NCBI GenBank assembly: GCA_021413735.1
Contig: JAIOPV010000250.1
Coordinates: forward strand, 1 to 64,000
DNA: 64,000 bases
DNA from: Planctomycetota bacterium
GTDB lineage: Bacteria; Planctomycetota; Planctomycetia; Gemmatales; Gemmataceae
Reading direction: 5' to 3'
The notes under the pieces were generated by a model, which was given only the letters and a program-made list of their open reading frames with translations, had not been told where the DNA came from and did not search any database. The position numbers were made by a program, and so were the translations under genes. Positions 34,350-35,504 of this stretch are shown one piece after another. Numbering within the stretch: position 1 is the stretch's first letter; each line of letters opens with the position of its first letter.

Positions 34350-35504
34350 ATGCCTCGAAGAGATCAGGTGAAGGAGGGGCTGATTGAGTGGCAAGTGGTG
34401 GACAAGGGGGCGCCGAGTTTTGAAACACTCGTGGACGAGGTTGAATACGCACTTTTCCCACCGAAGCACGAGGGAGAAGTGCCGACCTACGGTTGCGTGG
34501 TCTTGGAAAAGGCACCGAGTTCGGAAGAGGCTGATGGGAAGCTCAAAAAAGTCAGTAGAGAAATGGCCAGGGAGATGGCGGACGGTATCGCATCGTTCGC
34601 CGTTGTCGGAAAGAGCAAGTATGCACACGTCGCTCTTTTTGCCTCAGCAAATGACGAAGAGAGTCGGTTGATCGAGTTGGCGAACAAGTGGAAGGGATTT
34701 CTCGTTCATCGAAATGGAAAAGGAGTTGTTCGGGTATTCGCAAAACAGGCAATTCATATCTACGAAGCGGGCGAGTGGCTGATACGGCCGCACGCCGAAT
34801 CCGTGGTTTCGGACGTGATTACCGCAGCTCCGCAAGTCATAATCAACACACTGGACGGCATGCTTGAATTGGCGTTCCACGCACTCAGCCCGGCAAACGT
34901 GGGGACGACGCTCGTGCTCTGCCTGAAAAATGCGAAGGCGGCACCGGCCGATGGCATCGACCTGTCCAGCCTCGGGTTGAATGTCTGCGACAAAACGCAC
35001 ATCCCTGCGATTCGCTCGTTGCTCTGCCGCCACGACGGTGCGGTGTTCGTCGCGCCGGACGGAAAGCTCCTGTCAATGGGACACCATTTGCAGAACTCAG
35101 AAAGATCACGAGAGATCATCCCCAAAGTGGGAGGCACCCGGCATACGTCGGCAAAACGGTTCACATTCGACGAGCCACGGGTGATTGCGGTAGTCGTGTC
35201 AGAGGACGGCCCGGTTAGCGTGTTTTCAGACGGTGCAAAAGTAACAGAACTGAACCAGACGTTCGTCGGCGGTACCGCGAGCTATTTAGCATCCCTCGTT
35301 CCCGAGAAGGCACAGGATGTAGAAACGTACATCACGCCGGAGGAGTGCCCGAAGTGCGGTAAGCACTTGGAAGTTGAAGTGGTCATCATTTATGGTTTGC
35401 GGGAACCTGAAACGGGTGAATGCCCCGTATGCGGGGAAACCGTTTATCGGAAGAGCTGCTGGCAGATCATTCCGAGATTAGTGAAGCGGCTGCCAAGCAA
35501 ATAG
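34350..35504 (+). CDS. DisA_N/DAC-domain protein (candidate diadenylate cyclase) with C-terminal zinc ribbon
   Basis: CRHDGAVFVAPDGKLLSMGHHLQNSERSREIIPKVGGTRHTSAKRFTFDEPRVIAVVVSEDGPVSVFSDG carries the DGA and (T)RH(R/T) DAC motifs; CPKCGKHLEVE...CPVCGETVY zinc ribbon. Confidence 0.8.
   Translation: MPRRDQVKEGLIEWQVVDKGAPSFETLVDEVEYALFPPKHEGEVPTYGCVVLEKAPSSEEADGKLKKVSREMAREMADGIASFAVVGKSKYAHVALFASANDEESRLIELANKWKGFLVHRNGKGVVRVFAKQAIHIYEAGEWLIRPHAESVVSDVITAAPQVIINTLDGMLELAFHALSPANVGTTLVLCLKNAKAAPADGIDLSSLGLNVCDKTHIPAIRSLLCRHDGAVFVAPDGKLLSMGHHLQNSERSREIIPKVGGTRHTSAKRFTFDEPRVIAVVVSEDGPVSVFSDGAKVTELNQTFVGGTASYLASLVPEKAQDVETYITPEECPKCGKHLEVEVVIIYGLREPETGECPVCGETVYRKSCWQIIPRLVKRLPSK

Follow-up and report, generated by a model that had tools for sequence, protein, structure and literature searches.

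The 64,000-nucleotide stretch of DNA analysed here (hereafter the window) encodes an accessory diadenylate cyclase (34350..35504, + strand; 384 aa, ATG start) composed of a probable DACNK sensor domain, a catalytic DAC domain and a C-terminal zinc ribbon. Its gene resides in a prophage as optional cargo, flanked by a DarB-like antirestriction gene on one side and a GP88 family gene on the other. The domain architecture is one known from Pfam, together with a conserved zinc ribbon, and a prophage is an unusual carrier for it. The accessory diadenylate cyclase is real, the claim for an enzyme is strong, and the protein is predicted to be probably active; from these data we infer catalysis, the sensing of a cue and a purpose in defence or stress, of which a defence role is plausible.

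Domain architecture and predicted fold

A Pfam profile search placed the DAC domain (PF02457) at aa 175-295 (34872..35234, + strand; 50.5 bits, E 1.9e-13, and 53.5 bits in a whole-genome search) and, N-terminal to it, DACNK (PF21753) at aa 20-143 (34407..34778, + strand; 53.3 bits, 3.3e-14), with a curated Pfam cut-off of 27 bits for each model. The N-terminal region had previously been described from the sequence as an extra, uncharacterised module; an extra module is indeed present, but it largely corresponds to the named DACNK domain. Reading of the sequence located the DGA motif (aa 229-231; 35034..35042, + strand) within RHDGAV at aa 227-232, followed by GTRHTSA at the RHR/RHT position (aa 262-268; 35133..35153, + strand) and by VVVSEDGPVSVFSDG at aa 281-295, with the SEDG motif intact. 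Across the 24 DACs compared, D-G of the DGA motif is invariant and A nearly invariant. At the RHR motif the window protein has RHT; DacZ_P-type DACs, which are widespread, also vary at this third residue and have W, M or E there. The C-terminal CxxC...CxxC zinc ribbon (35346..35432, + strand), likewise read from the sequence, is formed by C333-x2-C336 and C358-x2-C361, and several zinc-ribbon Pfam models gave weak matches to the open reading frame. An SD-like AGGGG is located immediately 5' of the ATG.

The best PDB sequence match of the window protein was a diadenylate cyclase (E 0.0012). An AF2 model of aa 150-384, for which the input alignment consisted of 24 DAC sequences, reached a pLDDT of 92-95 over the DAC core, and all 29 PDB matches of the modelled DAC region at E<=1e-3 were CdaA, DisA or other diadenylate cyclases, including 9g0g, 8ogk, 4yxm and 9y9y among the CdaA/DacA and DisA structures. 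As the alignment contained other DACs, the model demonstrates compatibility with the DAC fold and is not a wholly independent confirmation of the family assignment. The BFVD viral structure library yielded no match to the DAC-region model at E<=1e-3. With Pfam models in the right order, PDB fold matches and motifs shared with a homologue, the assignment of the window DAC is beyond chance. The sequence-only reading, which had proposed a diadenylate cyclase with DGA...RHT and a C-terminal cysteine ribbon and had suggested fold prediction as a check, was thus correct in its central claim. The protein is compact, soluble-looking and amenable to study in E. coli, which has no native DAC and no c-di-AMP.

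Relatives and origin

A search of 60 relatives, 399 members of the class and 399 of the phylum returned DACNK from the window genome only. In phylum samples around other genomes, it was found in one of 250 genomes (sample around a Flavobacteriaceae genome) and in none of 299 (around a Ralstonia genome) or 151 (around a Gemmatimonadetes genome). The one homologue found, a 382-aa protein from a Bacteroidota genome (L013), is 26% identical to the window protein and has the same DACNK-DAC-ribbon layout. It carries GTRHTSAxRF, with GTRHTSA identical to that of the window protein, as well as VSxDGPVSxFSDG and all four ribbon cysteines, and DGA, TRH and S284 are kept, in agreement with the earlier expectation that DGA and RHT should be conserved among homologues. 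The neighbourhood of L013 consists of ordinary chromosomal genes, without defence genes.

In L013, the H that precedes DGA is replaced by N and the E of the SEDG motif by M, and other accessory DACs of the host group show altered motifs (DGC, DGS, DGT or RYN). Together with T as the third RHR residue, these substitutions would fit a DAC that has degenerated or become receptor-like, with nucleotide binding but without c-di-AMP synthesis. We consider this reading distinctly unlikely, as DGA, TRH and SE are intact in the window protein and the third RHR residue varies in DacZ_P-type DACs as well.

In a DAC-domain tree, the window protein paired with L013 (94/83), outside the CdaA clade (99/96) and the DacZ_P clade (99/97) of the host group. 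Two more DACs are encoded in the host genome, one of them a DacZ_P-DAC and the other, adjoining a PIN_12 gene, a DACNG-DACNH-DAC; some DAC is present in 57 of the 60 relatives. As DACNK is absent from the relatives, class members and phylum members searched, the window gene was probably acquired horizontally, as an extra that would be distinct from the cell's own enzyme.

Homologue searches with the window protein returned none in phages, plasmids, IMG/VR or GTDB contigs, weak plasmid matches at E<=10 being mostly archaeal DacZ, and an alignment-based viral scan likewise returned none. No genuine phage-borne DAC was present in 50,697 phage records; CdaA-type matches in unannotated phage records were rejected, as both of those inspected were cdaA-cdaR-glmM housekeeping operons, i.e. 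bacterial DNA. Matches to the DNA patterns DGA..GTRHTSA, GTRHT..SEDG and GTRHTSAxRF were likewise dismissed, since translation showed them to be due to chance only.

The prophage carrier

The carrier is a prophage of approximately 92.6 kb integrated in a ybiA/NADAR gene. The N-terminal half of ybiA (14421-14564) ends at the 14-bp attL core TCCAGGCGCAGAAG (14551..14564, + strand), 130 bp before a tyrosine integrase gene (14694..15779, + strand; PF00589, phrog_1), and a second copy of the core at C185:32118-32131 is followed by the C-terminal half. Joined across the core, the two halves gave a gapless alignment to E. coli YbiA (2b3w, 3.6e-58). Contig C273 (75 kb), of which the window is a part, carries genes for the small and large terminase subunits and the portal protein beyond the window; C273 stops inside the portal gene and C185 starts with the portal C-terminus, with about 18 residues missing between them. 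An HK97-type capsid gene (6tb9, 1e-59) and tail hub genes follow on C185. Thus, the split ybiA, the 14-bp repeat and the terminase, portal, capsid and tail genes identify the element as a prophage that spans C273 and C185, although its right end is less certain because the assembly leaves the two contigs unjoined and host-like genes are present in roughly the last 11 kb before attR.

The same element encodes a ParB-like protein (21436..22437, - strand; PHROG match), a phage transcriptional repressor-like protein (23170..24261, + strand; weak, 4e-4), a Lar-like restriction alleviation protein (40159..40929, + strand) and a TrwC-type relaxase/helicase (55307..58102, - strand; 7.9e-51). The previous description as a conjugative element can be traced to the TrwC relaxase, the ParB-like gene and a TraG/D-like gene; the mobile element stands, whereas the conjugative label does not. 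An integrative conjugative element was rejected as the main label, as none of the ORFs scanned in the element was recognisable as a type IV secretion gene, and phage structural genes and a split ybiA were found instead.

Several further features of the element are worth recording. The TraG/D-like coupling protein (19770-21284) lies inside the capsid- and tail-bearing prophage, and its combination with the TrwC-type relaxase in a tailed prophage represents a phage/mobilisable hybrid. HNH endonucleases are scattered through the prophage (window 53589-54338, 37577-38248 and 43494-44342; L006 6169-6771), one of them bearing an AP2 domain, and an int-alpA RNA (RF02996) is located at L006 9651-9716, upstream of the terminase genes. 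An ORF at C185:29788-30456 was labelled, by reading of its sequence, as putatively ADP-ribosyltransferase-like.

The cargo slot behind the DarB-like gene

As noted earlier from the sequence, a giant methylase-helicase gene lies directly upstream of the DAC gene, and it could be identified as a DarB-like antirestriction gene (27873..34247, + strand; phrog_10089, 1484 bits). It carries an intein of approximately 350 aa (31110-32171) at the helicase VDEC|H motif (TIGR01445/TIGR01443); the intein shows no recognisable homing endonuclease domain. On its other side, the slot is bounded by a GP88 family gene (35548..36315, - strand; PF17338, 4e-35). In a same-genus element (L078), both the DarB and GP88 flanks are kept and the slot holds an ORF that was labelled transposase-like from its sequence.

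The DarB-like and DAC genes are on the same strand and separated by 102 bp. This gap contains an extended -10-like box, TGGTATAAT (34264..34272, + strand; consensus match only), which includes the window's sole + strand TGNTATAAT, and, between this box and the start codon, the palindrome GCATTCCGGGGAATGC (34312..34327; single copy in the window), a possible candidate operator. A consensus promoter scan that included a -35 box returned none upstream of the DAC gene. The DAC gene may possibly form an operon with the DarB-like gene; an own promoter would be equally likely, given the TGNTATAAT box and the palindrome.

Such an own promoter-like region and the prophage location would also suit a role of the DAC in lysis-lysogeny or transfer control, in which c-di-AMP made upon DNA damage or stress would set prophage induction via a prophage regulator. 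DisA-type DACs report DNA integrity, which can be counted in favour of this explanation. Nevertheless, we regard it as unlikely: the window protein has no DisA linker/HhH region, no c-di-AMP riboswitch linked to the DAC gene was found, and no recognisable c-di-AMP receptor or effector was detected among the prophage genes examined. In addition, the DAC being optional cargo in related elements would argue against a core prophage regulator.

A search of 120 genomes returned DarB relatives from 24, the host itself carrying several copies, and none of the 15 DarB loci fetched contained the DAC gene. Known defence systems were located within 6 kb downstream in four of these 15 loci (DrmD with a type III methylase in L088, HamA/LmuB type in L086, Ssp/Dnd in L087 and Nsn/PD-T4-2 in L089), an association that is suggestive only, as the loci were picked for their defence-like appearance and without a random-locus control. 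Ten proteins from other DarB loci gave no defence match. The DarB-adjacent slot thus offers a lead for the discovery of defence or counter-defence cargo.

Proposed role of the prophage-borne diadenylate cyclase

On balance, we cautiously favour the reading that a functional accessory DAC is carried as optional cargo ('moron') of a temperate HK97-type tailed phage and serves stress or anti-phage signalling in the lysogen. DAC enzymes act as head-to-head dimers and produce 3',3'-c-di-AMP. In the proposed mechanism, the DACNK domain, perhaps with the zinc ribbon, would detect a cue in the form of a ligand, nucleic acid or protein, upon which the DAC domain would form the usual head-to-head dimer and join two ATP to 3',3'-c-di-AMP. 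The signal would then act via unlinked receptors of the lysogen, which would be the likeliest beneficiary, and hence the prophage. Since the host has its DacZ_P DAC and DACs occur in almost all relatives, c-di-AMP receptors are plausibly present in the cell.

Counting against this reading are the lack of a linked effector, riboswitch or PADLOC component, the chromosomal location of the homologue L013 and the T in the third RHR position. PADLOC returned no match for the DAC gene or its eight neighbouring genes, homing endonucleases excepted, and no candidate for a transmembrane effector resembling the Panoptes partner was found near the DAC gene. At this locus of the DAC gene and eight neighbours, the CD-NTase or mini-Cas10 cyclase with linked effector by which CBASS and Panoptes are recognised was likewise not found. 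The previous remark that the effector is not obvious therefore holds for the prophage genes examined.

Alternatively, the position of the DAC gene directly behind the DarB-like antirestriction gene, and the presence in the prophage of a Lar-like restriction alleviation protein, could point to counter-defence, with phage-made c-di-AMP blunting host immunity, for example by inhibiting a decoy-type effector (Panoptes 2TM-beta/OptE) or by competing at cyclic-nucleotide receptors; the surroundings of the DAC gene would then be an anti-defence region. We deem this improbable. The isomers differ, 2',3' in Panoptes versus 3',3' for the DAC product, which makes a Panoptes-blocking role less likely, and the homologue L013 is chromosomal rather than phage-borne. 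Panoptes is indeed restrained by mCpol-made c-di-AMP, but this signal is 2',3'-c-di-AMP; OptE of one Panoptes system responded to 2',3'-c-di-AMP only, while another Panoptes effector was only partially stabilised by 3',3'-c-di-AMP (PMC12657230, PMC12657218).

Returning to lysogen signalling through host receptors, we propose, as a tentative idea, that a temperate phage could alter the immunity or physiology of its lysogen by means of its own cue-gated c-di-AMP synthase. If true, this would represent a phage-encoded cyclic-dinucleotide transmitter, kept downstream of a DarB-like antirestriction gene in a slot whose content can be exchanged. Phages destroy or soak up cyclic-dinucleotide signals by nucleases and sponges, and a phage-encoded synthase would reverse this known handling.

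Comparison with known systems

The arrangement recalls the DarB-type antirestriction genes of phage P1, in that the direct upstream neighbour of the DAC gene is DarB-like; no DAC is known from phage P1. With CdaA/DacA and DisA, the window protein has the DAC fold and the DGA and RH motifs in common. It differs from both by RHT for RHR, from CdaA by the lack of a transmembrane N-terminus, no hydrophobic segment being detected at the threshold applied, and from DisA by the lack of the linker and helix-hairpin-helix C-terminus, for which no Pfam match was obtained and in place of which the zinc ribbon is found; with the DisA NCBIfam model it scored far under the cut-off. The resident DacZ_P-DAC (C162, L001) shares the catalytic DAC domain, whereas its sensor domain is a different one and it belongs to a separate clade.

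Two further accessory DACs of the host group are sporadic like the window gene, and both probably carry a sensor. On a 7-kb contig (L007, G000:C278, 115-4035), genes for GmrSD_N (DUF262), the host's DACNG-DACNH-DAC with RGSRYNS at the RHR motif, and PIN_12 lie side by side, a trio that, as far as gene content indicates, looks like a DAC-linked conflict cassette. In L051 (G036:C532, 3680-6639), an accessory DAC whose motifs read DGC and KHT adjoins a CHAT-domain protein and a helicase. In contrast to the window protein, these DACs have different or unnamed N-termini and altered active-site motifs, and they have nuclease or protease-like genes linked to them, unlike the window DAC.

Galperin reportedly classified the DACN-type accessory diadenylate cyclases (2023, J Bacteriol) and is said to have found certain dac genes associated with CBASS and phage-resistance genes. 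Among all systems compared, the DACNK-DAC proteins (PF21753 and PF02457) share both domains and their order with the window protein, which is set apart from them by its carriage on a prophage and, possibly, by its conserved C-terminal zinc ribbon.
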